Below are positions 27,041 to 51,322 of a DNA stretch of 64,000 nucleotides, in pieces. Under the pieces are notes generated by a model. It was not told the DNA's origin and did not search any database. It saw only the letters and a list, made by a program, of their open reading frames with translations. Position 1 is the stretch's first letter. Every line of letters starts with the position of its first letter. The position numbers and the translations under genes were made by a program. Origin of the DNA: Hymenobacter yonginensis (lineage in GTDB: Bacteria; Bacteroidota; Bacteroidia; Cytophagales; Hymenobacteraceae); assembly GCF_027625995.1 (NCBI RefSeq), contig NZ_CP115397.1, positions 124,001 through 188,000 on the forward strand, in the 5' to 3' direction.

Positions 27041-27070
27041 GCGGCAACTTTGACCACCGTTGAGATGAAC
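27041..27070 (-). repeat. cassette repeat R1 (degenerate, first of array)
   Basis: On the minus strand it reads GTTCATCTCAACGGTGG, then loses the clear right box. It lies 20 bases before the barstar start and is the leftmost recognisable copy. Confidence 0.5.
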
Positions 27071-27090
27071 GCTGTTCAGTAACTTCCGAG

Positions 27091-27357
27091 ATGAAAATTT
27101 TTCTATCAGGGGCCGAGATGACGAGCGAGCCGGTATTACACGCCCACCTCAAACAGAAGCTCTCGTTCCCCGATTATTACGGGGAAAATCTGGATGCACT
27201 GTGGGACTGTATCAGGTGTGTTGATGTTCCGTTAACCGTGGTGTGGCAGGACTTTGCCCAAAGCCAAGAACACCTGGGTCAGTACGCGGAACGAGTGCTC
27301 CAAACGTTTCGGGACGCCGAGCAAGACGTACCCGGTTTTATTCTCGAAGTCGAGTAG
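27091..27357 (+). CDS. barstar-family ribonuclease inhibitor
   Basis: An 88-residue cytosolic protein that matches barstar along its whole length: LHAHLKQKLSFPDYYGENLDALWDCI is the barnase-binding helix-loop region with FPxYYGxNLDALWD. It is followed by VPLTVVWQDFAQS and a C-terminal helix and strand. Barstar proteins bind and block barnase-type ribonucleases. No barnase-like toxin gene is nearby. It occupies its own cassette between repeats R1 and R2, and the repeat starts one base after its stop codon. Confidence 0.9.
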   Translation: MKIFLSGAEMTSEPVLHAHLKQKLSFPDYYGENLDALWDCIRCVDVPLTVVWQDFAQSQEHLGQYAERVLQTFRDAEQDVPGFILEVE

Positions 27358-27358
27358 G

Positions 27359-27390
27359 GCCTCGTCTACCTTCGGACCGTTTTCTTGAAC
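27359..27390 (-). repeat. cassette repeat R2
   Basis: Minus strand: GTTCAAGAAAACGGTCCGAA then AGACGAGGC. Between barstar and the DUF5063-like gene; its end is 7 bases before the next ATG. Confidence 0.9.
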
Positions 27391-27397
27391 TGGCATT

Positions 27398-27928
27398 ATG
27401 GACCGCCAACAGTCTACCGAAGAGATTCTCAAAGCCCCAACCTTTACGGCCTACTACCAAGCCGCGGTGGCCTTTTGTGCCTTCATCGAGCAACCGGAGC
27501 CCGGTCTGCCGCAGGACTTTCTGCTGGCAACTCGTCGGTACTTGGTCAGCTTGTATGATGCTGCATCTGCCTTGCCGTGGGTTGACCTGCAATCGGAACA
27601 GGACTATGACGACCCCTTGGCCGCCACTACCTTTCAGGCGACCCTTTCCAGCATCGCGGAGCGGTTGGGAGAAGCCCGCTATTACTGGCTAGTGTTTGAC
27701 CCCCTCGACGACATGGAGCACACCCCGGTTTGCGGTGACTTGCTGGACGATGTAGGGGATATCTACAAAGACGTTCGCAATGCTCTCTTGGTCTTCCAGT
27801 TAGGCCAACCTGACTGTCAGGAAAATGCGTTGTGGCAATTCAAGTTTGATTTTGACGCGCACTGGGACCGCCATTGTGTGGGCGCCTTGTCCGCTATTCA
27901 CTTTTACTTGAAAAGGCTCCAACAATAA
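27398..27928 (+). CDS. DUF5063-like protein
   Basis: A 176-residue soluble helical protein: TAYYQAAVAFCAFIEQP, FLLATRRYLVSLYDAASALP, IAERLGEARYYWLVFDPLDD, LLDDVGDIYKDVRNALLVF and ENALWQFKFDFDAHWDRHCVGALSAIHFYL. This order, with YYWLVFDPL and the W-x-F-x-F-x-x-H-W-x-x-H segment, is that of DUF5063, small proteins often found in immunity-gene clusters. The function is unknown. It is a single-gene cassette with only 7 bases between the repeat and the start, so the promoter must lie in the repeat or further upstream. Confidence 0.7.
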   Translation: MDRQQSTEEILKAPTFTAYYQAAVAFCAFIEQPEPGLPQDFLLATRRYLVSLYDAASALPWVDLQSEQDYDDPLAATTFQATLSSIAERLGEARYYWLVFDPLDDMEHTPVCGDLLDDVGDIYKDVRNALLVFQLGQPDCQENALWQFKFDFDAHWDRHCVGALSAIHFYLKRLQQ

Positions 27929-27963
27929 GCCTCGTTTTGGCGAATCCGACCGTTTTCCTAAGC
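27929..27963 (-). repeat. cassette repeat R3
   Basis: Minus strand: CTTAGGAAAACGGTCGGATT then CGCCAAAACGAGGC. It begins directly after the TAA of the DUF5063-like gene. One of the best short-form copies. Confidence 0.95.
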
Positions 27964-27983
27964 CCAGTGAGGTAGCTTGCGCC

Positions 27984-28421
27984 ATGCGCTTTCTAAACAG
28001 CTTTTCCGCTGGCCACCGCTGGGTGGCGACCCGATATGCCGTAGTATGGCTGCTGCTCTTCGTGCTCGGTAGCAGCTTGTCGGCTTGCATGGACTTCTTC
28101 ACCCGAGAAACGCCCATTTACGGCCCGTATTACGTCGCCCATGACCCGTCAGGGGCCGGCTACAGCCTCTTTTACCGGGGCCCTAACGGTGTAGACTATG
28201 ACCGTTTTCAAGACGTTTCCCGGGTCGGCCACAAAGCCGGGTACGTGTTTATCCAATCCGGGCCCCGTTACTATTGGTTTGCCGTCCGCAATGACCGGAA
28301 TACCGACCCTGGGGACCCCGCCATTCAGGCCTTAATCAGCAAACCCCTCACGCCCGCGCAGTTCCAGCGGTTGACCGACAGCTTGGGCACCGGTCCCATT
28401 GCGTTTCAATTTCAAGACTGA
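27984..28421 (+). CDS. small lipoprotein, unknown
   Basis: 145 residues. A basic N-terminus and hydrophobic helix (YAVVWLLLFVLGSSLSAC) end in a lipobox-like LSAC, so it is probably a lipoprotein. The mature part has GPYYVAHDPSGAGYSLFYRG and SRVGHKAGYVFIQSGPRYYWFAVRN. No family is recognised. It sits alone between repeats R3 and R4. A membrane-anchored immunity protein is possible from context only. Confidence 0.7.
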   Translation: MRFLNSFSAGHRWVATRYAVVWLLLFVLGSSLSACMDFFTRETPIYGPYYVAHDPSGAGYSLFYRGPNGVDYDRFQDVSRVGHKAGYVFIQSGPRYYWFAVRNDRNTDPGDPAIQALISKPLTPAQFQRLTDSLGTGPIAFQFQD

Positions 28422-28456
28422 AGCGCACGTTACCGCGACCTAGTACCAATCTAAAT

Positions 28457-28488
28457 GCTCCCTTGCTTGAACCACCGTTTTCTTGAAT
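28457..28488 (-). repeat. cassette repeat R4
   Basis: Minus strand: ATTCAAGAAAACGGTGGTTC then AAGCAAGGGAGC. The left box is intact and the right box weak. Confidence 0.8.
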
Positions 28489-28544
28489 GAAATACTTAGC
28501 GCTATCGACTCTAAAGCCCGACGATTTGCGGTTATCATTGCCGC

Positions 28545-29051
28545 ATGAGAATATATGAACTTGTCAGGGGAGCATTGTGGAGCGTTTCGCTACTACTGTC
28601 GGCTTGCAAAAGCGCGAGCCCAGCCGATCAGGTTGGGTTGGAGCATACGCTAGCCACCCCCAGGGAGAAGCCCTCGATTCTTGGCGTGTGGTATTTGCAA
28701 ACTGTTTATATCGAAGGCCAGCTCAGCAATGACAGCACGCCCTTTAGCAACGTCGTAGAGGTAAAGCCAGGGGCCAACGGCCACATGTACACGAAGGACC
28801 ATAAAGCGCTCCATCTCGTCTATGGGAACATACTCGACGAGAATTCTTACCGAGCATTCGGAGATAGTTTGATCGTCTTCGATAGCGCCAATGTCTACCG
28901 CGAACGCATACTGGATCTCACGCCGACACGCTTAGTCAAGGTCCTCGTCACGGATAAACCCGAAGGCTACTTCAAAACCACCACCACGTTTAAACGAACT
29001 TCCTTAAAAGAGTTAAAAAACTTAAGGCAGCGATTTCTAAGCAGCGAGTAG
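28545..29051 (+). CDS. lipoprotein, lipocalin-like unknown
   Basis: 168 residues. The signal (GALWSVSLLLSAC) has a lipobox ending in LSAC. The mature part contains LGVWYLQTVYIEGQLSNDSTPFSNVVEVKPGA, typical of lipocalin-like lipoproteins that open with GxWxL, and ends in a basic helix. No defined family. Single-gene cassette between R4 and R5. Confidence 0.7.
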   Translation: MRIYELVRGALWSVSLLLSACKSASPADQVGLEHTLATPREKPSILGVWYLQTVYIEGQLSNDSTPFSNVVEVKPGANGHMYTKDHKALHLVYGNILDENSYRAFGDSLIVFDSANVYRERILDLTPTRLVKVLVTDKPEGYFKTTTTFKRTSLKELKNLRQRFLSSE

Positions 29052-29084
29052 TAATTGCGTCCAGACTTTGAGTTTGAAAAAGTA

Positions 29085-29116
29085 GCTCTACTACTCGAAT
29101 CACCGTTTAATTAAAC
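29085..29116 (-). repeat. cassette repeat R5
   Basis: Minus strand: GTTTAATTAAACGGTGATTC then a decayed right box. It follows the lipoprotein gene by 33 bases. Confidence 0.75.
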
Positions 29117-29183
29117 CCGTCCTGTCGCAAGGTTATGGGACGGCTGGTCCACGCCGGTAAATGCCGTGGGCTTGGGCAAGTCG

Positions 29184-29408
29184 CTACGACGTCTCTTCCT
29201 GCTGTTGCATTTCTGTACGTTTGCCTCTGCGTATCCACGCCACGACGAGCCATAGCAATCCAACATTAGCCAGTATTGCTGCAGCAAAGAAATAGTCTGT
29301 TTCGACGGGAATATTGTGGCCACTAGCATACGCCATAGCCCATAGCAAGCACCAACCCAGCAGCGATAGGCTCAATAGACACGCTAACACCAACAAAAAA
29401 TATCTCAT
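29184..29408 (-). CDS. small two-span membrane protein
   Basis: 74 residues with two hydrophobic segments (YFLLVLACLLSLSLLGWCLLWAMAYA and YFFAAAILANVGLLWLVVAWI) and a charged C-terminus (RRGKRTEMQQQEE). The function is unknown. It lies alone between R5 and R6, opposite in direction to the preceding genes while the repeat polarity stays the same. Small two-span proteins are common as immunity proteins against membrane-acting toxins (context only). Confidence 0.65.
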   Translation of the reverse strand: MRYFLLVLACLLSLSLLGWCLLWAMAYASGHNIPVETDYFFAAAILANVGLLWLVVAWIRRGKRTEMQQQEETS

Positions 29409-29441
29409 CCCTTTTTGCGCTTATAGTTTAGGTAAAGAAAC

Positions 29442-29476
29442 CCCTCATTTAAGCGATTCTGACCGTTTGATTGAAT
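29442..29476 (-). repeat. cassette repeat R6
   Basis: Minus strand: ATTCAATCAAACGGTCAGAA then TCGCTTAAATGAGGG. Between the two-span protein gene and the SMI1/KNR4 gene. Confidence 0.85.
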
Positions 29477-29494
29477 TGGAATGCTACGCAACGC

Positions 29495-30142
29495 TCATCG
29501 GGCTTCCTCTTCGCTGGTCCAATAGTTGGGGTTTCGTTCTCGGTCTGGAAACTCCTCCGCGTCATTCACATGGGTGGTTCGGGCGAAGGCGTCTTTTATT
29601 AGCCAGCCCTGAAGCGTATCCGTCCAGAGCGAGCCGTAAACATCGGGTTGCGGATTGCGTCGCGTCGGGGAAACCGGCGTCAGGAAATACACCGGATTTG
29701 TCTTCCGGTCGATAATTAGAAAATAAAAGTCGTTGATTGGGAAGATAAAGGGGATGGCCTTTTCTTTCATCCGGTCAAGGGTGAGGCCCTTGATGGCCAA
29801 GAGTTCCGCAATGCGCTGCTGGATGTAGGGCAGGTGTTCGGGGTAAGAAAAATAGATGGGCGCAAAGTCATAGGGGGTGCCGCATTCCCCGTACACGTTG
29901 ACCCCCGGCACAGTCGTACCATTCATGACCCGGTAAAAGGCTCGCAATTCTTCCGGAAAATCGAATCCCAAGGCCGCTTGAAACGCCTCGAGTGCGGGCT
30001 CGGTCAACCCCGGCCGCCAGTGCGTTCCTGGTTGGTGCTGTAGCCCGTAGGCCTCGACGTCCAGCTGTAGTTCGGCAAAATGTCGCTCGCTGTGGTATTT
30101 GAACCAACGCATGAATTCACCGGGAACGGCGGGGTACTCCAT
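29495..30142 (-). CDS. SMI1/KNR4-family protein, copy A
   Basis: 215 residues. GLTEPALEAFQAALGFDFPEELRAFYRVMNGT is the family core, followed by YPEHLPYIQQRIAEL, FPINDFYFLIIDRKTNPVYFLTP and WTDTLQGWLIKDAF. SMI1/KNR4 proteins are a well-known superfamily of immunity proteins against polymorphic toxins. A closely related copy B lies at 45123 on the opposite strand; both open with MEYPA and keep GLTE, FPEELRAFYR, GVNVYG and LWTDTLQGWL. Relative to the repeat polarity both copies point the same way, as if the block had inverted or the cassette had been copied. Confidence 0.88.
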   Translation of the reverse strand: MEYPAVPGEFMRWFKYHSERHFAELQLDVEAYGLQHQPGTHWRPGLTEPALEAFQAALGFDFPEELRAFYRVMNGTTVPGVNVYGECGTPYDFAPIYFSYPEHLPYIQQRIAELLAIKGLTLDRMKEKAIPFIFPINDFYFLIIDRKTNPVYFLTPVSPTRRNPQPDVYGSLWTDTLQGWLIKDAFARTTHVNDAEEFPDRERNPNYWTSEEEAR

Positions 30143-30177
30143 AACACCTTACCAAGAGAGATTATCTTCCAAGAATA

Positions 30178-30209
30178 CGCTCGTTTACTTTCCGACCGTT
30201 TCACTAAAC
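30178..30209 (-). repeat. cassette repeat R7
   Basis: Minus strand: GTTTAGTGAAACGGTCGGAA then AGTAAACGAGCG. Upstream of SMI1/KNR4 copy A. Confidence 0.9.
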
Positions 30210-30246
30210 CTTTAGGGGTTCTGGTTTCAACTTCTGGCCAGGGGTG

Positions 30247-30852
30247 TTAGTCCATGCGCGGCTTGCGGTCCAGCCATATGGGTTGTAGCGGCAGGCCCAG
30301 CACCTGTTGCACCGCCCGGTGGGCGTGCAAGCCATTGGAGCGGTCGTCGACCACCGACCAGCGGGCGCCCCACTCCAGCGCGTACAGGTCCGCGGGAAAG
30401 TGCGTACCAACGGCCGTGTGGTGGTAAATGCGCCGTAGCACGTTATCAAGTTGGGCCAGTTGGCGGACCCGCGGCCGGTGGCTCTGGGCCAGCACCCGAG
30501 CCTGCGGGCGGTAACGGCGGTAGAACGCCGCCGCGCCGGCAGAGCCTTCCCACACAGCCGTTTCGGCGGTGGGGTAGACCAGTTGCGCGGCGTGCACGGA
30601 ATCGCCGCGCGCCACGACGCGGACGCCGTAGTGCACGGCCGCCGCGTGGGCGTAGTACATCGGATAGCTGAAGTAGAGCGTGTCCCCGGCGGTGAAGGCC
30701 CCGAGCCGGAGCGTGTCGCCGTACACGGCCAACGGCGTGGCCGGGGAAGGCAATCGGGCCGGACGCCCCCCGGCGCACGCCCAGAGCAGGGTTACCCCTG
30801 CAGCTGCGGCCAACAAACGGGCCCACGCGAATTGAGAATACCACACGTGCAT
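30247..30852 (-). CDS. lipoprotein, unknown
   Basis: 201 residues with a signal peptide (WARLLAAAAGVTLLWAC) whose lipobox ends LWAC. The body has AVYGDTLRLGAFTAGDTLYFSYPMYYAHAAAVHYGVRVVARGD and LDNVLRRIYHHTAVGTHFP. No family was recognised. High GC, like the core genome. A single gene between R7 and R8. Confidence 0.65.
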   Translation of the reverse strand: MHVWYSQFAWARLLAAAAGVTLLWACAGGRPARLPSPATPLAVYGDTLRLGAFTAGDTLYFSYPMYYAHAAAVHYGVRVVARGDSVHAAQLVYPTAETAVWEGSAGAAAFYRRYRPQARVLAQSHRPRVRQLAQLDNVLRRIYHHTAVGTHFPADLYALEWGARWSVVDDRSNGLHAHRAVQQVLGLPLQPIWLDRKPRMD

Positions 30853-30888
30853 AGAAGCGAGGGCGCAAAAAGAGAGACGAGAAAATTA

Positions 30889-30930
30889 CGCTCGTTTCCC
30901 TTAACATACTACTTATTCCGTTTTCTAAGC
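30889..30930 (-). repeat. cassette repeat R8 (variant)
   Basis: Minus strand: GCTTAGAAAACGGAATAAG, a widened centre, then GGGAAACGAGCG. The same altered left half recurs at 62925-62947. Confidence 0.75.
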
Positions 30931-30936
30931 ACGCCC

Positions 30937-32508
30937 TTATTTCAGGGGCTGGAGCTGGTAGCGCAGCATCTTGCGGCTGATTTCGTAGCGGTACACCAAC
31001 ACCTGGCCGCGGGGACCAACCACGAAATTGGCCAATTGGTCAGGCTGATAGTTCACCACGGGCGGACCCTGCGGACCGTTCACGGCTTTGTTCACGGCTT
31101 CGACGCCGGTGTTCAGCTTCTGCTGCAGCGAACCAAGCCGGCCGGTCAGCCGGTCCAGGGCCGGGCTGCTGGCCATGGGCGGTGTGGCCGAGTAGGCCGG
31201 CAGCTCGGGCAACTTTTCGGCTTCGGTCAGCGCGCGCGTGGCGGAGCGCGTGGGCGTGTTGGCGAGCACCGTGGCGTAGGCATAAGCCTGGTTGCCCTCT
31301 ACCCCGGTGTAGACCAGGGTGGGCTCGCCCTGCCGGCCAATGACGCCACGGTAGCTGCTCAGGCGCTGCTCAGCGGGCGTGCCAAGGGTTTTGAAGGTGC
31401 GCGCCACCGGGTAGACGGTGGCCGCCCCCCCGGCCGCCGCGGGGTAGGTCAGCACCACAAACGGGCCCGGCTGCGCAGCACCGTATTCGGCCACCAGCGT
31501 GGCGTCGGCGCCGGTGGTGGTCAGCAGCTCCAGGAGGCGGAAGCTGCCCTTGCCCTCGTACAGGCGGCGGCCCAGCGCCGGCTCTCCGGTCGCTGCGGCT
31601 AGTTCCGCCCAGGGCGTCAGGGTAGGGGCAACGGCCTGCCCGTCGGCGCGGTACGCCGTCATGAATACGCCCAGCACGCTGTCCCGGCGCGTGGCCTGGG
31701 GCTGGGTATACACGCCGGCGGCCACCACGCGGCCGTCGGCCAGGGGCAGCAGCTGCGTGGGCAGGAGCGTGAACTTGTCCTGGCGAACTGGCGTGCGGAA
31801 CAGCATCTTGCCGGTGCCGCGGTCCAGGCCCAGCACGGCCAGGTCCGTGACGCCCCGTTGCTTGGGCGTGTTGGGGTTCACGGTGTAGGAATCAGACAAC
31901 ACCAAGGTGATGAGGTCCTTGCTCACGGCCACTTGCAGGGGCACGTGCTGGCGCAAGTCGGCGGGGAAATACATCCGCGACCACTGGGTTTTGAGGTCTT
32001 TGTCGAGCACCGTCACCGTGTAGCCCGCCGTGTCCCGGCGGAAGGGTTGCACGAGACAGAACCCCTCCGTGGGCGTCATGGCGATCAGGGGACGGCCGGT
32101 GGGCACACGGCGACGGTCCGGCTCGGCCACCAGATCACGGCGGAGCTGGGCCCCGGTTTGCGGATTAAAGGTGTAGAGCGACAGCCGGGCCGCGCTCTGG
32201 TCATGGAAGGGCAGCGCAAACGTCGTCTTGCCGTCCAGGCGGGGTAGCATCGCGGCGCCCACGGGCACGGGCAACGCATACTGGTGCCGCACGTTCAGGG
32301 CGGGGTCGAGCAGGCGCAGGGCATAGATGTCCTGCCCCTCTTCTCCCGCTTCACTGCGGTAGAACAACGCGTAGCCCTGATCGTCGAGTGGCAGCACCTG
32401 GGGCGGCTGGGGCACGCCGCGAATTTCCTGCATCTGTTGGGCTTGGCTGGCCAAGGGCAGCAGTACGGCTAGGAAAGCCAGAAAGAAGAGGCGGATAGGA
32501 GGTTTCAT
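30937..32508 (-). CDS. large periplasmic protein, propeller-like, paralogue of 32559
   Basis: 523 residues with a signal peptide (RLFFLAFLAVLLPLASQAQ). The mature part is built of repeated strands (PLDDQGYALFYRSEAG, DGKTTFALPFHDQ, GYTVTVLDKDLKTQWSRMYF, LLPLADGRVVAAGVYTQPQATR) and ends in PRGQVLVYRYEISRKMLRYQLQPLK. No enzyme motif is visible. It lies 50 bases after the related 32559 gene with no repeat between them, so these two form the only clear multi-gene unit in the array and the longest cassette. Exported scaffold or binding protein is the safest call. Confidence 0.7.
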   Translation of the reverse strand: MKPPIRLFFLAFLAVLLPLASQAQQMQEIRGVPQPPQVLPLDDQGYALFYRSEAGEEGQDIYALRLLDPALNVRHQYALPVPVGAAMLPRLDGKTTFALPFHDQSAARLSLYTFNPQTGAQLRRDLVAEPDRRRVPTGRPLIAMTPTEGFCLVQPFRRDTAGYTVTVLDKDLKTQWSRMYFPADLRQHVPLQVAVSKDLITLVLSDSYTVNPNTPKQRGVTDLAVLGLDRGTGKMLFRTPVRQDKFTLLPTQLLPLADGRVVAAGVYTQPQATRRDSVLGVFMTAYRADGQAVAPTLTPWAELAAATGEPALGRRLYEGKGSFRLLELLTTTGADATLVAEYGAAQPGPFVVLTYPAAAGGAATVYPVARTFKTLGTPAEQRLSSYRGVIGRQGEPTLVYTGVEGNQAYAYATVLANTPTRSATRALTEAEKLPELPAYSATPPMASSPALDRLTGRLGSLQQKLNTGVEAVNKAVNGPQGPPVVNYQPDQLANFVVGPRGQVLVYRYEISRKMLRYQLQPLK

Positions 32509-32558
32509 GATAGAGAAGCAGGCAATAAACCGGAATAGATCAAGCAGGTAGTCCTTCG

Positions 32559-34169
32559 CTAGTTGCCGGGTACGTCCAGCACTTGCAGGTGCAGGCGGGA
32601 CGTGGCCGGATCGTAGTGGCTGTAGAGAAACTTGCCGGGCGCGTGCGGCAGTACTTCGTCAAAGAAGAGCGCGGCGGGGGCGTAGTCGATGGCGCCGGCG
32701 ATGTCGTTGGAGTAGGTGCGCACGGTGAGCTCGCCCAGGTCGGGTCCCCCGGGCACGGCGGGTTGGTCGAGGTAGCGGCGGGTGAAAAGGTTGTCGCGCG
32801 CGTCGGTGGCCGGCTTCAGGCTGTTGACGTAGAGCAAGCCCTGGTGCCAGTTGAAGAATACCACTTCGGGCAGCTTCGCCGGGTCGCGTTGGTAGAGAAA
32901 GCGGTAGGCGTACACGGTTTTGTTGTTGAACTCGGCGTTGCCGCCCCCGCCTACTGCCTGGTCGCTGTAAATTTTGTACGGCTTGGGAATGCGCCGCAGC
33001 GATTCCAGCTGTCCTTGGGCCGTAAACTGGAACACGACGAAGTCAAGGATGTCGCGGCGCAGGGGGCCGGGGCCCGCCGTGCCGTTCAGGCCCGGGGCCC
33101 GCACCCCGCCCGCCGCCTCGTACTGCGGGTCGGTGAAGCTGAAGGTTTTAAAGGTTTCGCCCAGCAGCGCGTAGCCGCCACCCGGCCGGGGCAGGAAGGC
33201 GTGCACCTTCACGCCGGGTGTCTCGCCCACGGTAAACTGCGGCAACGTGGAGCGGGTGTTGAGCTTGCCGGCCAAGTCCTGGGCGTAGCTCAGGCGGGTC
33301 AGAAAATCCGGCTTGCCATCGGGGCCCAGGGCCAGCGTGAACAAGCCGCCACGCGGGGGCATGTTGGCCGAAGAAACAGAGACCAGGGGCGTTTTCTGCG
33401 CGGTCTCCGCGTAGGTGCCGGTCAACAGCAGGTGGCCGTTCGAGCCGAGACCGGCGAAGGTGGGTGTGAGCGACGTGGCCTCGGCCGGCAGATCCTGGTG
33501 CAGTTGCTCGGCGCCGGTGGGCCCGTCCAGGCACACCACTTCGAAGGTGCCCTTGGTGTGGTCGGCGACGACGTACACGTGGGCGGCATCGGCCTGGGCA
33601 AAGCGCACGCGGTACTTGCCTTTCTCGGGGGCGTAGTCCTTTTTCCACTTCACGCTCAAATCCGGGCCGTAGCGGGCCACCGCGTAACCGGTGTTGCCGG
33701 AATCGAAGGGGTACGCCAGATAAAAATCACCGTTCCCGGCCGGCATAATCACGGCCTGGCTCATCCATACGTCGTTGGCCGGGAAGCGCACTTCCTTGAA
33801 CTTCTGCCCCGTGGCGTCGACGGTCAGTAACAACCCTTCTTTGCCGGTGAAAAAGTAAAACACGGCCTGGTCGCCCACCATGCGGGCATCGCCTTGGTAC
33901 CAGTTGCGGCCCAGGCGCACGTCGGTGGTGCCTTTCTTTTGCAGGTTACGGCCGTATACCTCGAGGTGAAACAGGTCGTAGACGTTGCGCTCCTGCCGCA
34001 GCATGAAGTACACCTGCCCCTCCACGGTTCGAAAGCCCCGGTAATAACTCGCTCCCAAGTCGGAGATGGTCGCTTCCTGGGCGGCAGCGGGCAGCGCCGC
34101 GAGAGAGAAGGCGCCAAGGACGATAAAGCCGCTGCGTAGCACCAGCCGCTGGAGATAAGAACCAATCAT
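32559..34169 (-). CDS. large periplasmic protein, propeller-like, paralogue of 30937
   Basis: 536 residues with a signal peptide (LRSGFIVLGAFSLAALPAAAQ). Shared features with the downstream gene include GYAVARYGPDLSVKWKKDYAPEKGKYRV (against GYTVTVLDKDLKTQW), a central GNGDFYLAYPFDSGN strand set and a C-terminal FLYSHYDPATSRLHLQVLDVPGN. No catalytic residues were recognised. First gene of a two-gene unit; the long-form repeat R9 lies upstream after about 300 bases of empty DNA. Such pairs in Bacteroidota are usually secreted proteins of unknown role. Confidence 0.68.
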   Translation of the reverse strand: MIGSYLQRLVLRSGFIVLGAFSLAALPAAAQEATISDLGASYYRGFRTVEGQVYFMLRQERNVYDLFHLEVYGRNLQKKGTTDVRLGRNWYQGDARMVGDQAVFYFFTGKEGLLLTVDATGQKFKEVRFPANDVWMSQAVIMPAGNGDFYLAYPFDSGNTGYAVARYGPDLSVKWKKDYAPEKGKYRVRFAQADAAHVYVVADHTKGTFEVVCLDGPTGAEQLHQDLPAEATSLTPTFAGLGSNGHLLLTGTYAETAQKTPLVSVSSANMPPRGGLFTLALGPDGKPDFLTRLSYAQDLAGKLNTRSTLPQFTVGETPGVKVHAFLPRPGGGYALLGETFKTFSFTDPQYEAAGGVRAPGLNGTAGPGPLRRDILDFVVFQFTAQGQLESLRRIPKPYKIYSDQAVGGGGNAEFNNKTVYAYRFLYQRDPAKLPEVVFFNWHQGLLYVNSLKPATDARDNLFTRRYLDQPAVPGGPDLGELTVRTYSNDIAGAIDYAPAALFFDEVLPHAPGKFLYSHYDPATSRLHLQVLDVPGN

Positions 34170-43716: not shown

Positions 43717-43721
43717 AGGCG

Positions 43722-45074: not shown

Positions 45075-45122
45075 GGTATATTCAGCCTATTATTGGCTGC
45101 TGGTCTCTTCCGGCACTGTGTT

Positions 45123-45770: not shown

Positions 45771-45838
45771 GGAGCGAGGGTACCAAGAAACGAGCAAAAT
45801 ACAGGCTTCGTCTTGCCGTAACTACTGTTTATGGGGAA

Positions 45839-45894
45839 GTTCACTCAAACGGTACTGCCGTAAACGCGCTCCGTTCAATCGAAGGAGCGTTTTA
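45839..45894 (+). repeat. cassette repeat F13 (long form)
   Basis: GTTCACTCAAACGGTACTGC, CGTAAACGCGCTCC, then CGAAGGAGCGTTTTA. Inner CGCTCC and GGAGCG can pair. The stop of the 45892 gene lies in its right end. Confidence 0.93.
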
Positions 45895-46167
45895 TTGCGT
45901 TTGATTCGCCGAACGTCTATGCTCGTAAACAAGCAAGCCCGTGATGGCCGCTAGGGTCGCAAATATCAGGGCATTGCAGCCGTTGCTTTGCCGGTGTAAT
46001 TGCGCTTGCCTCTTTTTCAAAGGGGCGGTGCTCAACCCACGGACTTCCACAACCGTGGTGAGCACGTCCTGGTCCTTTTGCAAGGCCGCCAAGTTGACCC
46101 GCATGAATGATGCGAGTAGCAAAAAGGCAATCAAAATGAGTTTGGCTATTGGCAAGAATGCCTTCAT
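45892..46167 (-). CDS. small two-span membrane protein
   Basis: 91 residues from the ATG at 46167 (the longer frame enters the repeat). Two hydrophobic helices (KAFLPIAKLILIAFLLLASFMRV and NALIFATLAAITGLLVYEH) flank a hydrophilic middle with a basic stretch (LKKRQAQLHRQ). The function is unknown. The stop codon lies inside F13. Confidence 0.65.
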   Translation of the reverse strand: MKAFLPIAKLILIAFLLLASFMRVNLAALQKDQDVLTTVVEVRGLSTAPLKKRQAQLHRQSNGCNALIFATLAAITGLLVYEHRRSANQTQ

Positions 46168-46195
46168 AAACGGGTGAAATCCGAGGGGTGTCCGA

Positions 46196-46250
46196 GTTTG
46201 GTTAAACGGTCCCGCCATAAACGCGGCAATTCAGTTTAAGGAGCGTTAAG
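46196..46250 (+). repeat. cassette repeat F14 (long form)
   Basis: GTTTGGTTAAACGGTCCCGC, CATAAACGCGGCAA, then TTTAAGGAGCGTTAAG. Its right half is nearly identical to F22. Confidence 0.93.
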
Positions 46251-46279
46251 TTTGATTGTGCTTGAAAAGCCGACTGTAA

Positions 46280-46684
46280 ATGAAGCCCTATCCTGACCCG
46301 GAGCCAAGAAGTTTCGCGCAATGGTGCAGTGATATGGGCACAAGCCATGAAGGAAGGGCTTGGCCACCCAACCAGGTTATGACTTACCTGGAATTTTGCT
46401 TTCTGCCCGAAACAACACTCAGAAAGACTAGCTCAGGAGCTTTATATGGATTTTGGCGCCAATATGGGGATGTATACGGTGAACCAAGAACCGTTAAAGA
46501 GTGGCTGGAAGACATAGGGTGGCATCTTGTTGAGCCGACCGAAGAGGATTTGAGAGACTTGAATTTATTCCTGGCCCATGACGAATTCTGGACATGGAGC
46601 GGGGGCAAAATCGAACAAGACCTTAACGATTCGGAAGGAATCAGCCTATTCGAAAAACTTAGAAAGCTCTTTGCCAAGAAGTAG
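46280..46684 (+). CDS. hypothetical protein of lower GC
   Basis: 134 residues, soluble: RSFAQWCSDMGTSHEGRAWPPNQVMTYLEFCF, FWRQYGDVYGEPRTVKEWLEDIGWHLVEPTEEDLRDLNLFLAHDEFWTWSGG and a basic helical tail. No family recognised. Its codon use is clearly more AT-rich than the core genes, which supports recent transfer. Single-gene cassette. Confidence 0.65.
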   Translation: MKPYPDPEPRSFAQWCSDMGTSHEGRAWPPNQVMTYLEFCFLPETTLRKTSSGALYGFWRQYGDVYGEPRTVKEWLEDIGWHLVEPTEEDLRDLNLFLAHDEFWTWSGGKIEQDLNDSEGISLFEKLRKLFAKK

Positions 46685-46703
46685 TGATACCAAGGCTGCA
46701 GTA

Positions 46704-46743
46704 GTTCAGGAGAAGGGGGGATTCCAGCAAAACGGGCGTTCTA
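46704..46743 (+). repeat. cassette repeat F15
   Basis: GTTCAGGAGAAGGGGGGATT then CCAGCAAAACGGGCGTTCTA. The left box is decayed. It ends with the stop codon of the third SMI1/KNR4 gene. Confidence 0.8.
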
Positions 46744-47337
46744 GTTCAAGTTGATGGTATTCCCGGCGTCTTCCGCTTGCCAGTAGGTGGCGTGTGGGTT
46801 GAGCGCCTTGGCTAAGACACCTTCGGCGTCCATATCATAGTCAAAATAGCCGTCGGCATTGTACCAGTAAACGCCTTGCGCAAAGCAGGCCGTCAAGGTG
46901 GCCAGCATAGCCTCCAGCGAATCATACATCCGCTCGGGCGTGAGGAGTAGCAGGCTTGGGCACCAGCGGTACAGGCGCCCGTGATGCGGGCTCTGCGGGT
47001 CCAGGTTGAGCAACAACGTGTCGTCAAACAGGGGAAAAAAGTGGGGCTCATAGAAGTGCTCTTTTTGGTTCAGGGCATATTCTTCTATGGCCATTTCCAA
47101 CGGGTAAAAGACCCCGGGTGCGCCGACCCATAACTCTCCCACTAGCCCGCCCTCGTACGACTGGCCGTTTTTCCACGTGTAAAGCGCGAGCAACTCTGGG
47201 GTGGGGACAACGCCGGCTGCGGCAAACAGGTCGCGCACCGTGCCCGCTTCCAGGCCGGCGTTCCAGTACTGTGCGACCGGATACCCGGCCACAACGAGTT
47301 GGTGTTCAAAGGTGGCGAGCGTGGAACGGAAAGACAT
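46741..47337 (-). CDS. SMI1/KNR4-family protein, divergent third member
   Basis: 198 residues from the ATG at 47337. RSTLATFEHQLVVAG, then TVRDLFAAAGVVPTPELLALYTWKNGQ (the SMI1/KNR4 core with P-x-x-L-x-x-L-Y-x-W-x-N-G), YPLEMAIEEY, FFPLFDDTLLLNLD and CFAQGVYWYNADGYFDYD. It is much less similar to copies A and B than they are to each other, so it was acquired separately. Predicted immunity protein. The stop codon is inside F15. Confidence 0.82.
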   Translation of the reverse strand: MSFRSTLATFEHQLVVAGYPVAQYWNAGLEAGTVRDLFAAAGVVPTPELLALYTWKNGQSYEGGLVGELWVGAPGVFYPLEMAIEEYALNQKEHFYEPHFFPLFDDTLLLNLDPQSPHHGRLYRWCPSLLLLTPERMYDSLEAMLATLTACFAQGVYWYNADGYFDYDMDAEGVLAKALNPHATYWQAEDAGNTINLN

Positions 47338-47406
47338 GCGGCGCAAGAAAATAATCGGTGGTGGGACACCAGTCGAACAGCGAAGTAAGCACTGCCTACT
47401 CTAGCA

Positions 47407-47440
47407 GTTTACTGAAACGGTCGGAGATCGGAACTAGGCT
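47407..47440 (+). repeat. cassette repeat F16
   Basis: GTTTACTGAAACGGTCGGAG, then a decayed right box GGAACTAGGCT. Confidence 0.82.
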
Positions 47441-47450
47441 TGCTTCACTA

Positions 47451-47672
47451 TTAGCTCCCCGGTGGGTCCATTGGGTGATAGGCCAAGAATAGGAATAAGA
47501 TAGCTGCGCTCAACAATACCAAGCCAAACAGTAAGGCAATTCCAACGCCAACCAGCCCCCATGTAGTCCACTGCTGGGATTGGTGTAGCCGATACCCTAG
47601 TAGTACACTCAAGGTTAAGTAGCCGAAGACGGGTGCCACTACATAGAGCAAAAAGGACACTTTTAAGCTCAT
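47451..47672 (-). CDS. small two-span membrane protein
   Basis: 73 residues: LKVSFLLYVVAPVFGYLTLSVLLGYRL, HQSQQWTTW, then LVGVGIALLFGLVLLSAAILFLFLAYHP. Two helices with a short polar loop. The function is unknown. The start is 20 bases from repeat F17. Confidence 0.65.
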   Translation of the reverse strand: MSLKVSFLLYVVAPVFGYLTLSVLLGYRLHQSQQWTTWGLVGVGIALLFGLVLLSAAILFLFLAYHPMDPPGS

Positions 47673-47692
47673 CTATCTGCCAAATATTCGGT

Positions 47693-47728
47693 GTTCGCGA
47701 AAACGGTAATTCGGCGAAACGAGGCTTA
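47693..47728 (+). repeat. cassette repeat F17
   Basis: GTTCGCGAAAACGGTAATTC then GGCGAAACGAGGCTTA. Good short copy. Confidence 0.93.
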
Positions 47729-47761
47729 AAACTTGACAACACCCTATACACCCTTGCCAGT

Positions 47762-48031
47762 ATGTTGCAAGAACAGCGCATTAACCGAACCTTACGCAGA
47801 ACTGCCCTCTTGCTGGCCATACTGCTTGTACTCCTTGCAGGAAGTATATTTTTAACGGACGGATCACCTCACTCCAATACGGAAAGCATACTGAGTTATT
47901 ATAGTCCGATTCTGATCGCAATTGCCATTGCTTCTTTGCTGTGGATAATTCCCTGGGTTGCTGCCTTTTTTCTATTCCTGTCACTCGTAAAGGGATACTA
48001 TTTACTTCAAAACCGCAATAATTTAGTATGA
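47762..48031 (+). CDS. small two-span membrane protein
   Basis: 89 residues: a basic start (LQEQRINRTLRR), a first helix TALLLAILLVLLAGSIFL, a polar loop with SILSYYSP and a second helix ILIAIAIASLLWIIPWVAAFFLFLSLV. The function is unknown. It reads away from the previous small membrane gene, while the repeat polarity does not change. Confidence 0.65.
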   Translation: MLQEQRINRTLRRTALLLAILLVLLAGSIFLTDGSPHSNTESILSYYSPILIAIAIASLLWIIPWVAAFFLFLSLVKGYYLLQNRNNLV

Positions 48032-48084
48032 ATCAAGCAACGACTGGGTACTAACAAGCAAATGCTCCCAACTGTAGCCAAGAC

Positions 48085-48118
48085 GTTCACCCAAACGGTG
48101 ATTCTAGCAAAACTAGCG
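48085..48118 (+). repeat. cassette repeat F18
   Basis: GTTCACCCAAACGGTGATTC then TAGCAAAACTAGCG. Confidence 0.9.
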
Positions 48119-48139
48119 ATCGGGAGCCTATCTTGGACC

Positions 48140-48610
48140 ATGCACCTGATAAGTGAATCCGTCTTTGCCGCCGCCGTGGAGCAGCTCATCGGCACGACCA
48201 TTCAAACCACTCACGCGGGTCCCGGGACGGGCTCCATTTTTACCATGAATCTGCGGGCGCCCACCAGGGAGGAGCACCACCTGATGGTGTTTTGCGCTTG
48301 GAAGCTGCTGCGGGCCGGGACCATCACCTGCACTTGGCGAGACGCGGAAGAGGACTTGGCGGCGGCCCTAGCCGCCCATCAAAGGGAAACGCTCGCCGGG
48401 GCACGGGTAGAATCCGGCGGGGACCTCGTCCTGACGCTGGCCTCCGGGGCCGAACTCAAGCTCTTTGCTGACGGCCGCGTCCCGGACGAGCCGGCTGACC
48501 AGGACCAAGCCAGCGATTACTTCCTGCAGCAAGGCCTCACCACCTTCGTCAGCCTACGGGGCGCTTTTTACCAGGAAAACACGCCGCCTAGGGCGAAAAA
48601 GAAAGGGTAG
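48140..48610 (+). CDS. hypothetical protein with a truncated relative at 60.8 kb
   Basis: 156 residues, soluble: SESVFAAAVEQLIGTTIQTTHAGPGTGSIFTMNLRAP, HHLMVFCAWKLLRAGTITCTWRD, DLVLTLASGAELKLFADGRVPDEPADQDQASDYFLQQGLTTFVSLRGAFYQE. No named family. The last 28 residues are matched by a fragment on the minus strand at 60804-60890, so this cassette gene has a relative that was destroyed next to a resolvase remnant. The stop codon touches repeat F19. Confidence 0.7.
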   Translation: MHLISESVFAAAVEQLIGTTIQTTHAGPGTGSIFTMNLRAPTREEHHLMVFCAWKLLRAGTITCTWRDAEEDLAAALAAHQRETLAGARVESGGDLVLTLASGAELKLFADGRVPDEPADQDQASDYFLQQGLTTFVSLRGAFYQENTPPRAKKKG

Positions 48611-48640
48611 CCAACCGGTGATTCGGCGAAACGAGCATAA
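48607..48640 (+). repeat. cassette repeat F19
   Basis: GTAGCCAACCGGTGATTC then GGCGAAACGAGCATAA. It overlaps the TAG of the preceding gene; the left box has changed. Confidence 0.8.
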
Positions 48641-48709
48641 GTTCAGGCTTAAGCGGACGTCTATTGGTTCCCTACTTTTCCTCCAAACTACTTTACTTGC
48701 CCTGCGGCT

Positions 48710-49000
48710 ATGAATGAAGCGGATTACAAACCCATTCTAGCGGACTACCTGAGCAACCGCCTGACGGTGGACGAATACATTTCGGCCTTTATGAAGCAAT
48801 GGAAGCACGACCGCGACGTAGCGTGGGGTACGCCTTTGCCAGAGCAGGCGCCGAGACAAGAGCAATTTCACAAAATGATGAACCGTCTCTTCACTAGTGG
48901 CGATTGCTACGAGGAACACCCCGAATCTTCTTGGGAAATCAGTGAGGAAGAATTGCGCCAGGAAGTCCAGTTGTTTTACCAACGCTTATGGGGAGCGTAA
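48710..49000 (+). CDS. colicin-D-immunity-like protein
   Basis: 96 residues, helical and acidic: YKPILADYLSNRLTVDEYISAFMKQWKHDRD, FHKMMNRLFTSGDCYEEHP and ISEEELRQEVQLFYQRL. The pattern YxxLxxxYLxxxLSxxEFxxxFxxxWKxDRD, FxxLxxLFxxxDxYxxxP, xEExLRxEVxxxL is that of self-protective colicin-like immunity proteins, which bind tRNase toxins of the colicin D type. The assignment is from motif order and not from a search. It is a single-gene cassette with no toxin nearby. Confidence 0.6.
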   Translation: MNEADYKPILADYLSNRLTVDEYISAFMKQWKHDRDVAWGTPLPEQAPRQEQFHKMMNRLFTSGDCYEEHPESSWEISEEELRQEVQLFYQRLWGA

Positions 49001-49013
49001 CGAAAAGAAGTTC

Positions 49014-49048
49014 GTTCACGAAAACGGTCCGACGTTAAACGAGCGTTA
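49014..49048 (+). repeat. cassette repeat F20
   Basis: GTTCACGAAAACGGTCCGAC then GTTAAACGAGCGTTA. The final TTA is the stop of the 49046 gene. Confidence 0.96.
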
Positions 49049-49657
49049 GTTGTATTCCCTTGTCAGGCTGAATATGCACTTGCTAATCAACTCTTCATTG
49101 AGAGGGTGGTACTCGTACACCGAATAGGTTGTGGAGGAAAAGACTTCTGCCCGGTCAACGTAAAATTTCACGAGCGGTATGGGGTGCGTGCCAAGCTGCT
49201 TGCCGTGGTAGAAAAAACCAATGTGGCCGTGCGCTTTGTCTACGGGCAGCGAGTCCACCTGCACCGTGGACAGCACACTTGACTGGGTCATGACCTCGTA
49301 GGTGTACTGGAGAGTCTGCCCGCCTATGGTAGTGGGCTTGTTATTGCGGCCCCTGAACCATGGCAGGAACAGTTCTTTGTAATTAGTGCGGTAACTGACC
49401 GTAACGACGTTGCCCACCCAACTGCGAACCACAAAGGCTTCGTTGTGCATTGTAATTTCTTGCTGATCCCCGCCACTGACAGGAAAGAAGGTGAGCGTGC
49501 GAACCCCCTCTCCGTTCGTATTCTTCGCTCGCAAGAGACCGGCCGCCGTCGGGTAGAAGGTAAATGAAGTATCCGGGTGGTCCCAGTTCAATCCATCTTC
49601 GGGCGTGCAGGCCGTCAGTAGTCCCCCCAAGGTCCATAAAGCACGATGTCGTTGCAT
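49046..49657 (-). CDS. lipoprotein, unknown
   Basis: 203 residues from the ATG at 49657. The short signal (RALWTLGGLLTAC) ends in a lipobox LTAC. The mature protein is beta-rich: TSFTFYPTAAGLLRAKNTNGEGVRTLTFFPVSGGDQQEITMHNEAFVVRSWVGNVVTVSYRT, LQYTYEVMTQSSVLSTVQVDSLPV. No family recognised. The stop codon lies in repeat F20. Possible membrane-anchored immunity or stress protein. Confidence 0.68.
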   Translation of the reverse strand: MQRHRALWTLGGLLTACTPEDGLNWDHPDTSFTFYPTAAGLLRAKNTNGEGVRTLTFFPVSGGDQQEITMHNEAFVVRSWVGNVVTVSYRTNYKELFLPWFRGRNNKPTTIGGQTLQYTYEVMTQSSVLSTVQVDSLPVDKAHGHIGFFYHGKQLGTHPIPLVKFYVDRAEVFSSTTYSVYEYHPLNEELISKCIFSLTREYN

Positions 49658-49698
49658 AACCAAAGCTAGGGCCACTCAATGGTAGATGTTAAGAGGTT

Positions 49699-49750
49699 GT
49701 TCAGGAAAACGGTGGTGGCCTAAACGCGCTGTTTGGTTAGAGGAGGAATT
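49699..49750 (+). repeat. cassette repeat F21 (long form)
   Basis: GTTCAGGAAAACGGTGGTGG, CCTAAACGCGCTG, then GGTTAGAGGAGGAATT. Confidence 0.9.
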
Positions 49751-49791
49751 GGAGTATGTTCTCCCGACGGGCCAGCCATGTGAACATCCGG

Positions 49792-50238
49792 TTACATATT
49801 GCTCTCTGCTGGTTGAACGGGAGGTCCCTTTTTTATTTCCAGCAGGATGGTATCCGCTTCGTGCATTCCTTTCGCGGCTGCTTTCGTGAGATAATGCCGC
49901 AGCAAGGCTTGCGTTTCCTTGTCCAGGTCGTGAAAGCTGCGCGCTCCGTTCATTTCACACTCTTTGTAGATGTCATGGTACACATCCAGGTACGCCGGCG
50001 GATAATAGTTTTTGTTGGCCATCATTAGCGCGTCGTAGAGGAATTCAGTGCCGGGGGAGAAATCCAAGGCGATAATTCGCAATCGTTGATAGGCCTCCAC
50101 GTTGCCATTGTAGGCTGCTTGTTGCAGCTTCGGAATGTCGTCACTCTCATAATTATTCATCGACACTTGCTCGCTGCTAGGTGTTTGACACATGGGGAAA
50201 GCCAGCAGCACAAACCACCAGAGCAGACGTTTTTTCAT
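49792..50238 (-). CDS. lipoprotein, helical (Sel1/TPR-like)
   Basis: 148 residues from the ATG at 50238. The signal (KRLLWWFVLLAFPMC) has a lipobox FPMC. The mature part is helical: DDIPKLQQAAYNGNVEAYQRLRIIALDFSPGTEFLYDALMMANKNYYPPAYLDVYHDIYKEC and LLRHYLTKAAAKGMHEADTILLEI. The pattern of alternating A/Y/L helices is like Sel1 or TPR units. Unknown partner. Single-gene cassette. Confidence 0.68.
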   Translation of the reverse strand: MKKRLLWWFVLLAFPMCQTPSSEQVSMNNYESDDIPKLQQAAYNGNVEAYQRLRIIALDFSPGTEFLYDALMMANKNYYPPAYLDVYHDIYKECEMNGARSFHDLDKETQALLRHYLTKAAAKGMHEADTILLEIKKGPPVQPAESNM

Positions 50239-50280
50239 TTGATTGTGGCGTGAAGCAATGTTAGCAGACAGCGTCCACTC

Positions 50281-50330
50281 GTTCAAGAATGGTCGTGGCC
50301 TAAACGCGGCAATTCAGTTTAACGAGCGTC
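50281..50330 (+). repeat. cassette repeat F22 (long form)
   Basis: GTTCAAGAATGGTCGTGGCC, TAAACGCGGCAATT, then CAGTTTAACGAGCGTC. Two bases are lost from the left box (AATGGT for AAAACGGT). Confidence 0.88.
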
Positions 50331-50361
50331 CTGAGGGATATATAACCTAGCAGCGTGTTGG

Positions 50362-50850
50362 CTAAAAAGCCGAGTAACAAATTTCCTCAACTTGCTGGCC
50401 TTGCAAAGTTGACTGGCGCTGACGCACGGTTAGCGTTGATTCGGACAATTCGGTAATATCGTACACGTTGGACTGGCCCGCAGTGAAGGGATGGGGCAAG
50501 GCCGCAATTAGCTGCGACTCGTCACTTCCAGGTCTAAAACTCCACGTATACACCCGCTGTTGAGGGTCGCCCGGGGCGCAGGTCGAGGGGCCTTCATCAA
50601 GCAAAAGGGTAGTGTTGCGCTCAAACCTGAGAAAGTCATCATGCCAACAGGCGGGCCGAGCATCGAAAACATTGCCTCCAGTGAAGGCTTTTTGATTTGA
50701 ACCAGAAAGGGTCAGGGTGTGCCCGACTTCTCGCCATGGGCGGCGGGTGAGCAGGTCGGCCTTAGAGGGGGAAGCAACCGGCGTTTCTGCCTCTTTCTTG
50801 CAGGAAAAGAGTAGGCCGACTGTAGCCAGAAATAACAGGGACTTTCGCAT
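50362..50850 (-). CDS. lipocalin-like lipoprotein
   Basis: 162 residues from the ATG at 50850. The signal and lipobox (RKSLLFLATVGLLFSC) are followed by KKEAETP and LLTRRPWREVGHTLTL, the usual opening of Bacteroidota lipocalin-like proteins. FLRFERNTTLLLDEGPSTCAPGDPQQRVYTWSF, YDITELSESTLTVRQ complete the strand pattern. Unknown ligand. Single-gene cassette. Confidence 0.72.
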   Translation of the reverse strand: MRKSLLFLATVGLLFSCKKEAETPVASPSKADLLTRRPWREVGHTLTLSGSNQKAFTGGNVFDARPACWHDDFLRFERNTTLLLDEGPSTCAPGDPQQRVYTWSFRPGSDESQLIAALPHPFTAGQSNVYDITELSESTLTVRQRQSTLQGQQVEEICYSAF

Positions 50851-50906
50851 TGAGGTAGAAATAGGTAAAGGCAAGGAACAAGATAAGGCAACAGCATGGC
50901 ACACGC

Positions 50907-50942
50907 GTTTAGAAAAACGGTGATTAGGCGAAACGAGCGTTA
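50907..50942 (+). repeat. cassette repeat F23
   Basis: GTTTAGAAAAACGGTGATTA then GGCGAAACGAGCGTTA. It is followed at once by GAACGCGTTTTCAACGCGTTC, a second perfect small palindrome-like stretch at 50946-50966. Confidence 0.93.
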
Positions 50943-50974
50943 CTTGAACGCGTTTTCAACGCGTTCGCATCAAG

Positions 50975-51229
50975 ATGGAGGACCTTCAATTTCCTTTGTT
51001 TTTGCTCACCTACATCCAGGAACACGATGGCAAGTGGTACTGGTACCAATTGGACCGCGCGGTGAGCACCACGGAAGGCTTGAACGGTCGGTCTTTGCGG
51101 CGAGAACTCGACGCGTTACATGCTGCGGGATTGATGGAGAGCCAGGAAGTAGCGGGTCGACTACGTTACTTTATTACCGACAACGGCAGACAGTTTGTGG
51201 CGACAGGTGGCAACAGCCAGCAGCTGTAA
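50975..51229 (+). CDS. small winged-helix-like protein
   Basis: 84 residues, soluble: FPLFLLTYIQEHDGKWYWYQLDRAVSTTEGLNGRSLRRELDALHAAGLMESQEVAGRLRYFITDNGRQFVATGG. The order (helix, short strand, recognition-type helix LRRELDALHAAGLM, wing VAGRLRYFITDNGRQFV) resembles a PadR- or ArsR-type winged helix. Regulator or toxin-neutralising protein; not decided. It is the last cassette gene before the terminal palindrome. Confidence 0.6.
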   Translation: MEDLQFPLFLLTYIQEHDGKWYWYQLDRAVSTTEGLNGRSLRRELDALHAAGLMESQEVAGRLRYFITDNGRQFVATGGNSQQL

Positions 51230-51244
51230 CAAGGGCCCTTTAAT

Positions 51245-51279
51245 GTTTAGTCAAAAGGGTCTGCCTGCAAACGGGCGGC
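51245..51279 (+). repeat. cassette repeat F24 (last of array)
   Basis: GTTTAGTCAAAAGGGTCTGC then CTGCAAACGGGCGGC. Its right two thirds form one arm of the 30-bp palindrome at 51257-51322. Confidence 0.75.
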
Positions 51280-51322
51280 TGTACACACTAGGGTGCACAG
51301 CCGCCCGTTTGCAAGCAGACCC
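51257..51322. terminator. 30-bp palindrome closing the cassette array
   Basis: Arms 51257-51286 and 51293-51322 pair at 28 of 30 positions, with a 6-base loop. It lies between convergent genes and can end both transcripts. Because the left arm is built from the last cassette repeat, it also looks like an inverted duplication of that site, possibly the end of the array. Confidence 0.85.

Follow-up and report, generated by a model that had tools for sequence, protein, structure and literature searches.

Integrons, in which the tyrosine integrase IntI works with a head site (attI) and cassette sites (attC) and which include sedentary chromosomal forms, are regarded as one invention that depends on IntI and on folded attC sites. 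Tandem insertion at one site by serine recombinases is known from the staphylococcal cassette chromosome (SCC) elements, which carry their own Ccr recombinases. In gut Bacteroidales, the recombinase-associated acquired interbacterial defence (rAID) clusters have a tyrosine recombinase and co-oriented genes according to the accessible part of their description (PMC12247911), and polyimmunity loci lie in several cases beside XerC/D-type recombinases, as far as the accessible part of that source goes (PMC3482391). The locus described here is located in a 64,000-nucleotide stretch of Hymenobacter yonginensis (NCBI RefSeq assembly GCF_027625995.1, contig NZ_CP115397.1, positions 124,001 to 188,000 of the forward strand), which is called the window and to which all positions refer. 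It is likely to be a mobile gene-cassette array that is integron-like in its working and made of other parts, with a serine recombinase running the platform. We lean, a little less firmly, towards a serine-recombinase integron, in which a Tn3-type resolvase and its res site would have become a capture platform with double-stranded insertion at the head, two exchange points per site and often bidirectional arrays, and integron-like capture would have evolved more than once. No such system was described in the titles and opening abstract lines of the open-licence PubMed Central papers listed, a scope outside which most subscription papers and bioRxiv fall.

The initial annotation had placed at least 33 copies of a bipartite repeat between small genes at 27041..51322. 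Its left box (GTTYANNNAAACGGT) was matched 38 times in the window with at most 2 mismatches, as against 1-8 times in 10 Markov controls. A site weight matrix, trained on 510 unique copies from fetched loci and the window itself and therefore partly circular for the window, gave 32 window calls at a score of at least 13, 27 of them within 27070-50907, with a Markov expectation of ~0.3 per 100 kb at this score. With 5 further degenerate copies from repeat lists, the array holds about 32 copies (27 scored and 5 degenerate), so that the annotated number was slightly high while the repeat itself is real and far above chance. The scored copies comprise 8 on the minus strand up to 34517 and then 19 on the plus strand from 36009, in agreement with the uniform polarity annotated for each half. 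The repeat was dense at 27041..51322 as annotated, but not confined to it, further scored copies being located at 2143 (minus), 2921 (minus), 53406 (plus) and 62893 (plus).

The cassette site is asymmetric and consists of a left exchange box, GTTYANN|N-AAACGGT, and, at a distance of 24-45 bp, a right one, |AAASGAG, which was recognisable in about half of the site copies; 5' of the first G of GTTYA conservation was absent (0-0.1 bits). Among 567 scored copies, 202 were of a short form with the right box 24-28 bases from the start of the left box (consensus GTTCANNNAAACGGT-CCGAATAGCN-AAACGAG-CGTTA) and 82 were of a long form with the right box at 40-45 (consensus GTTCANNNAAACGGT-n6-TAAACGCGCTCC-GTTCANNNNAAGGAG-CGTTA). 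The annotated repeat thus needs a correction, in that the distance of the right box is not fixed, being 24-28, 40-45 or neither. Insertion elements were also observed within the left exchange box, namely a family of ~1.6 kb and small elements of ~147 bp with the ends TGGCTGTTGCAGAAC, in the pattern AAACGGTCG|...|CGGTCC with an apparent target duplication. Among 70 unique ends of these elements, 23 were located directly after a left box (examples among many loci: L075:5651-5830, L002:5944-6130, L094, L186 and L127:11280-12917), and the insertion sequences that target integron attC sites are a parallel to them.

For the distribution of the repeat, a contig scan with a 19-position pattern was performed and returned 87 stretches, 74 of them from Hymenobacter. 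H. arizonensis contained 116 exact left boxes, as against 2 for the reversed-pattern control, and the longest same-polarity run, 58 minus sites followed by 12 plus sites, was located on one contig. At least 10 exact left boxes were present in 31 of 120 Hymenobacter genomes (hereafter array-rich), and at most 8 in 84 other genomes of the family, for which the reversed control reached up to 7. As expected in the initial annotation for mobile cassettes, the same repeat thus recurs with differing gene content in related genomes, and the scattering over the genome that would have spoken against them was not found, the repeats being clustered.

Cassette exchange was analysed by aligning homologous cassettes from different places together with their flanks, the comparisons being between species with one genome per species. 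In the left-site alignment (23 pairs, not independent), identity was random left of position 0 and 0.61-1.0 from position 15. In the right-site alignment (17 pairs, not independent), values of 0.71-0.94 held as far as the box; they were ~0.6 over the three variable bases, and starting at position 15 identity was no better than random. A left-box break was found at window position 28487 and a right-box break at 50906, both against H. canadensis at 95% identity. Right-box breaks were clearest when a short-form copy faced a long-form copy (window 50906 and 27389, L128/L131 and L030/L127), and the sequence shared at breakpoints was ~8-15 bp long. The placement of breaks relies on the position-wise identity table and on examples read by eye; the automatic split into 6 left-box and 27 right-box breaks is crude, many of the 27 being misplaced by divergence within the site.

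All 25 window matches of at least 150 bp in other fetched loci were confined to one site-to-site interval, edge boxes included. The ADP-ribosylglycohydrolase cassette at 40250..41260 (minus strand) matched positions 277232-278241 of the H. canadensis plasmid NZ_CP114768.1 at 98.3% over 1011 bp, with the left break just before AAASGAG and the right one just after GTTCATTCAAACGGTC; a site copy gave the sole other match of an 8-kb query to this plasmid (52 bp, window 38933-38984). Other cassettes of the plus strand at 28497..29108 (95% to a cassette of the H. canadensis plasmid with other neighbours), 47721..48067 (95.7%) and 50931..51265 (95%, break at the right box) had their matches in H. canadensis, and the cassette at 49743..50289 (minus strand) was 94% identical to one of H. 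lapidiphilus. The cassette with a DUF5063 gene at 27363..27937 (plus strand) recurred beside a head element in H. lapidiphilus (91%) and within an array of H. amundsenii (88.5%). The next cassette was compared for 112 homologous but non-identical pairs that had one on both sides, and it was homologous in 0 of them; the pairs are not independent, and the 72% threshold has an influence. Exchange with breakpoints inside the repeat, proposed in the initial annotation, was thus seen across species in aligned homologous cassettes, and the conserved gene order named as its opposite was not found. A search for arrays that are collinear except for the gain or loss of a whole cassette yielded one within-locus duplicate case only, because neighbours were never kept in the tested pairs.

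The polarity switch of the window array is occupied by an attI-like head element (35301..35440, plus strand), in which three short near-palindromes are followed by a terminal exchange box, GTTCACTGAAAGGAG. Relatives of this element, detected by blastn and nhmmer, were located at the array heads of other loci. The element is ~140 bp long and has its terminal box in common with the cassette sites; the alignment of 36 heads gave, in this order, GTTTACGAAACTCAT, GTTTCGTAAACTTTGA and GTAGACGAGTTTCTTAAACTC, after which a variable stretch leads to the terminal box GTTCANNNAAASGAG. The terminal box was recognisable as right-box-type in 55 of 62 heads, and a left-box-type one was seen neither in 30 heads of recombinase loci nor in the 36 aligned heads. 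Array sites point away from the head, and arrays often extend both ways from this centre. For 60 unique heads, the first site within 3 kb was of the same polarity in 40 and of the opposite polarity in 1, with none in 11 and the locus end reached in 8; many of the head loci had been chosen for holding sites or a recombinase, and empty heads are perhaps under-counted. The median distance from head to first site was 554 bp, equal to one cassette.

For 9 of 55 heads, a copy of the cassette that comes first was found elsewhere behind a scored site at an identity of at least 80%, with the homology starting at the shared box (11 heads were counted at first, and 9 once a scored site was required); one of the 9 was the cassette at 27363-27937 of the window, beside the head in H. 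lapidiphilus. Such recurrence fits insertion at the head by right-box exchange. Across the 120 genomes, head counts and site counts were correlated (Spearman 0.81), 27 candidates being scored per genome and the high head counts being lower bounds. At least 2 heads were present in all 31 array-rich genomes, and none in 17 of the 89 others.

A gene for a serine recombinase of ~203 amino acids is located just outside some heads and is divergent from the array; most heads are without it. The protein was assigned to the resolvase/invertase group by its PF00239 catalytic domain (7e-44), and its nearest PDB chain was a DNA invertase. Ser9, Arg65 and Arg68 were conserved at 97% or more in 30 copies, with Arg7 below that level. 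In the genus, 87 of 120 genomes had a match to the recombinase at E<=1e-30, distant paralogues included. The best 30 loci (75-100% identity) all had a head-like match upstream at the lax threshold of E<=1, some of them weak, and this match began no more than 13 bp from the start codon in 19 loci and 16-39 bp away in the rest, where it was sometimes weak. With a rebuilt head profile at E<=1e-4, the head was kept in 17 of 19 larger recombinase stretches. A site of head polarity was contained in the short fetched stretch of 14 of the 30 loci, and of 13 of the 17 copies with at least 86% identity. The comparison set was made up of 15 loci whose serine recombinases were different or less closely related, four array-rich genomes supplying twelve of these loci; the head was absent in 14, with one partial match beside a 74% copy. 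A recombinase copy of at least 85% identity was carried by 11 of the 31 array-rich genomes, as against 6 of the 89 others (Fisher p=0.0003). A complete H. canadensis plasmid had a typical layout, with minus array, head, recombinase and plus array in this order, and carried another two-way array at a different place.

The best listed relatives outside Hymenobacter, from the plasmid collection, were 68% identical and located on Pseudomonas plasmids; the one inspected lies two small genes away from a Tn3-family transposase, and this position suggests a transposon resolvase with its res site as the ancestor of recombinase and head. In Tn3-family resolvase/res modules, too, a gene for a small serine recombinase points away from a site that has several near-palindromes; they differ in that the terminal box in Hymenobacter is repeated through long cassette arrays. 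SCC elements resemble the arrays in having serine recombinases and in being inserted in tandem at a single site; they differ in carrying their own recombinases, and the Ccr models reached only 54.6, 39.2 and 33.5 bits, far below their cut-offs of 900, 700 and 900, respectively.

In the window, a remnant of the serine recombinase was detected by tblastn at 60968..61123 (plus strand; last ~52 residues, 79% identity). A Fic-domain gene at 61180-62289 adjoins this remnant, and Fic genes were also observed near the recombinase in L119 and on the H. canadensis plasmid. The initial annotation had named as support one tyrosine or serine recombinase shared at an array end. A serine recombinase does lie at heads, but the window has a remnant only, and 20 of the 31 array-rich genomes were without a copy of at least 85% identity.

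Those absences weigh against a platform run by the serine recombinase, and so do the following observations. Beside the window array, no intact recombinase was seen within the 64 kb. The array-rich genomes G069 (37 exact sites, 17 heads) and G020 (22 and 7, respectively) had no recombinase match at E<=1e-30. The recombinase stretches L171 and L173 had no head at E<=1e-4, and several copies of 74-79% identity (L169, L170 and others) had head and recombinase with no detectable array. Heads were present in 103 of 120 genomes, many of them without arrays, and 2 threshold-passing head matches (L122 and L152) were not at a scored site. In the sites themselves, 283 of the 567 copies matched neither right-box form, and the left arm of the right box is unlike GTTCA in copies of the short form. 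Furthermore, the action of small serine recombinases is usually intramolecular, and integration between molecules would be unusual for them. The array-less loci with head and recombinase may be empty platforms or plain resolution systems; simple pattern counts revealed no variant-site arrays beside their heads.

Alternatively, the cassettes might be moved by a host or plasmid tyrosine recombinase, of the XerC/D type or of a family of 320-390 amino acids, with the serine recombinase as a bystander resolution system, which we hold to be unlikely. Tyrosine recombinases, examined as PF00589 and the one family, were present in 6 of 6 genomes tested, the family being located on several array contigs; integrons have tyrosine recombinases, and so do the rAID clusters in the part of PMC12247911 that is accessible. 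Against this, at E<=1e-40 the family had matches in 101 of 120 genomes, among them G007 and G027 with 0 sites, and none in the site-rich G116, G069 and G020; an integron integrase was over the cut-off in 0 of 6 genomes; and the gene linked to heads is the serine recombinase, with the terminal box of the head equal to the site box. The family of 320-390 amino acids was rejected as the driver, being present irrespective of sites and absent from several array-rich genomes. Copies of it were observed at G001:C9, C10, C13 and C16 and at G002:C12, C19 and C20, several with an in-frame stop.

The boxes could also be passive, with arrays shuffled by homologous or illegitimate recombination and with head and recombinase as a Tn3-like resolution module that landed nearby. 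This is again improbable, slightly more so. The 68% relatives on Pseudomonas plasmids, one of them near the Tn3-family transposase, the existence of heads without arrays and the insertion elements that hit boxes too are consistent with passive boxes. The shared ~8-15 bp at breakpoints are, however, short for RecA-type exchange, polarity is constant across up to 58 sites, head and array polarity agree in 40 of 41 cases, and the cassettes next to heads are joined to them at the shared box.

The locus might further be a true integron, or an attC cluster without integrase (CALIN), with degenerate attC sites. With integrons it shares a common logic: a head site, at some loci next to a recombinase gene, cassettes mostly of one gene each, sites of uniform polarity, genes that are for the most part unassigned, a content that has been shuffled and many arrays without an adjacent recombinase. 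It differs from them in having a small serine recombinase as the presumed driver instead of a tyrosine one, no conserved site fold, two exchange points, arrays that often run both ways from one centre and genes in both directions. In 6 array-bearing genomes the IntI model (TIGR02249) was never matched over its cut-off, and an integron integrase was therefore rejected. RNAalifold gave no consensus structure for 53 of 82 long and 97 of 202 short sites (the commonest register of each), and the only candidate stem had no covariation, so that folded attC-like sites were rejected as well. The site profiles had no paired RYYYAAC/GTTRRRY ends, as the initial annotation had stated, and a degenerate integron or CALIN is thus very improbable. 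A known RNA family was also considered for the array and rejected, the single Rfam match being at chance level and far under its gathering score (E 0.27, 25.9 bits vs 84).

The content of the cassettes was determined on 256 same-polarity intervals of 150-3000 bp from 17 stretches (window, H. arizonensis and H. jeongseonensis). An open reading frame of at least 80 amino acids was present in 243 of them, covering ~80% of the interval, whose median length was 665 bp, and the cassettes are mostly single-gene, as annotated. Of these reading frames, 101 ran along the site polarity and 142 opposite to it, a mild excess against, which bears out the annotated independence of gene direction from repeat polarity. 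That the repeats are promoters, terminators or operators can hardly be upheld and was rejected, since polarity is independent of gene direction and cassette boundaries coincide with boxes, although a TTTG-like stretch, by eye a possible part of a Bacteroidota promoter, often stands at the right end. On the same grounds of polarity, and with cassette ends inside the boxes, the repeat is taken as the probable recombination site of mobile cassettes that the initial annotation had proposed.

The 107 cassette proteins of H. arizonensis had no common family. Among the 25 Pfam families listed for them, TonB_C was the largest (5 proteins) and MORN_2 the next (2), with single matches to, for example, GNAT, Imm32, Imm11 and SUKH. 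PADLOC returned for these proteins two CARF models with one member each, and an anti-phage content was rejected. Immunity-like genes (barstar, SUKH, DUF5063 and colicin immunity) are more frequent in the window array, and to its left are located an RHS-repeat gene fragment (24923-25873) and, next to it, a DUF6896 gene. Two SUKH-type genes that are 73% alike are divided between the array halves (29494-30181 and 45084-45771); their orientations are opposite, each running along the site polarity of its own half.

To the rAID clusters, as presented in the accessible part of PMC12247911, the arrays are similar in their short genes, some of them immunity-like, in conserved intergenic motifs and in the presence of a recombinase; the tyrosine recombinase and co-oriented genes of rAID are unlike the Hymenobacter genes, with 101 along and 142 against the polarity. 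To the polyimmunity loci, as covered by the accessible part of PMC3482391, the window array is similar in starting by an RHS-repeat fragment and in holding barstar, SUKH, DUF5063 and colicin-immunity-like genes, and H. arizonensis is dissimilar in that immunity genes were scarce among the 25 Pfam families listed for its 107 cassette proteins (one protein for each of Imm32, Imm11 and SUKH); that part of the source names no repeat as a defining feature.

The minus-polarity half of the window array (27036..34517) contains its 8 scored sites on the minus strand at 27036..27070 (score 13.6), 27356..27390 (short form, 29.7), 27929..27963 (short form, 18.5), 28454..28488 (18.9), 29082..29116 (18.5), 29442..29476 (21.9), 30175..30209 (short form, 27.1) and 34464..34517 (long form, 22.6), and degenerate sites from the repeat lists are on the same strand at about 30890 and, beyond the last scored site, about 34980. 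The plus-polarity half (36009..50960) contains its 19 scored sites on the plus strand at 36009..36062 (long form, first after the head, 25.0), 36548..36583 (19.1), 37290..37325 (21.8), 38051..38104 (long form, 23.3), 38503..38538 (17.3), 38933..38986 (long form, 25.8; 52 of its bases match the H. canadensis plasmid at 94%), 39419..39454 (19.6), 41227..41262 (25.8), 42716..42751 (28.6), 43098..43133 (14.0), 43467..43502 (19.6), 45839..45894 (long form, 21.8), 46196..46249 (long form, 16.0), 47407..47442 (25.5), 47693..47728 (16.1), 48085..48120 (22.3), 49014..49049 (28.2), 49699..49752 (long form, 23.3) and 50907..50942 (22.6). Its degenerate sites, also on the plus strand, are at 40225..40260 (repeat family D4, at the left edge of the 98.3% cassette match), 48605..48643 (repeat family D8) and 50281..50330 (long form, repeat family D14). 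At the end of the last cassette, a loop-less inverted repeat of 34 bp with 91% identity was observed at 51256-51323.

Unit boundaries, polarity, heads, exchange and linkage are shown by the sequences, and the following course of events is proposed for the cassette array with a serine recombinase. The recombinase would bind to the near-palindromes of the head, as a resolvase does at its res site, and would cut within the box. Cassettes may be excised as circles, inserted at the terminal box of the head and shuffled at internal boxes, and where an array has no recombinase copy of its own, as in the window, the enzyme would act in trans. If this is true, cassette capture would be reachable by a second route, with a different recombinase chemistry and double-stranded sites, and might provide a simple double-stranded tool for cassette assembly. 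It would also explain how one genus keeps large sets of shuffled small genes, mostly of unassigned function.

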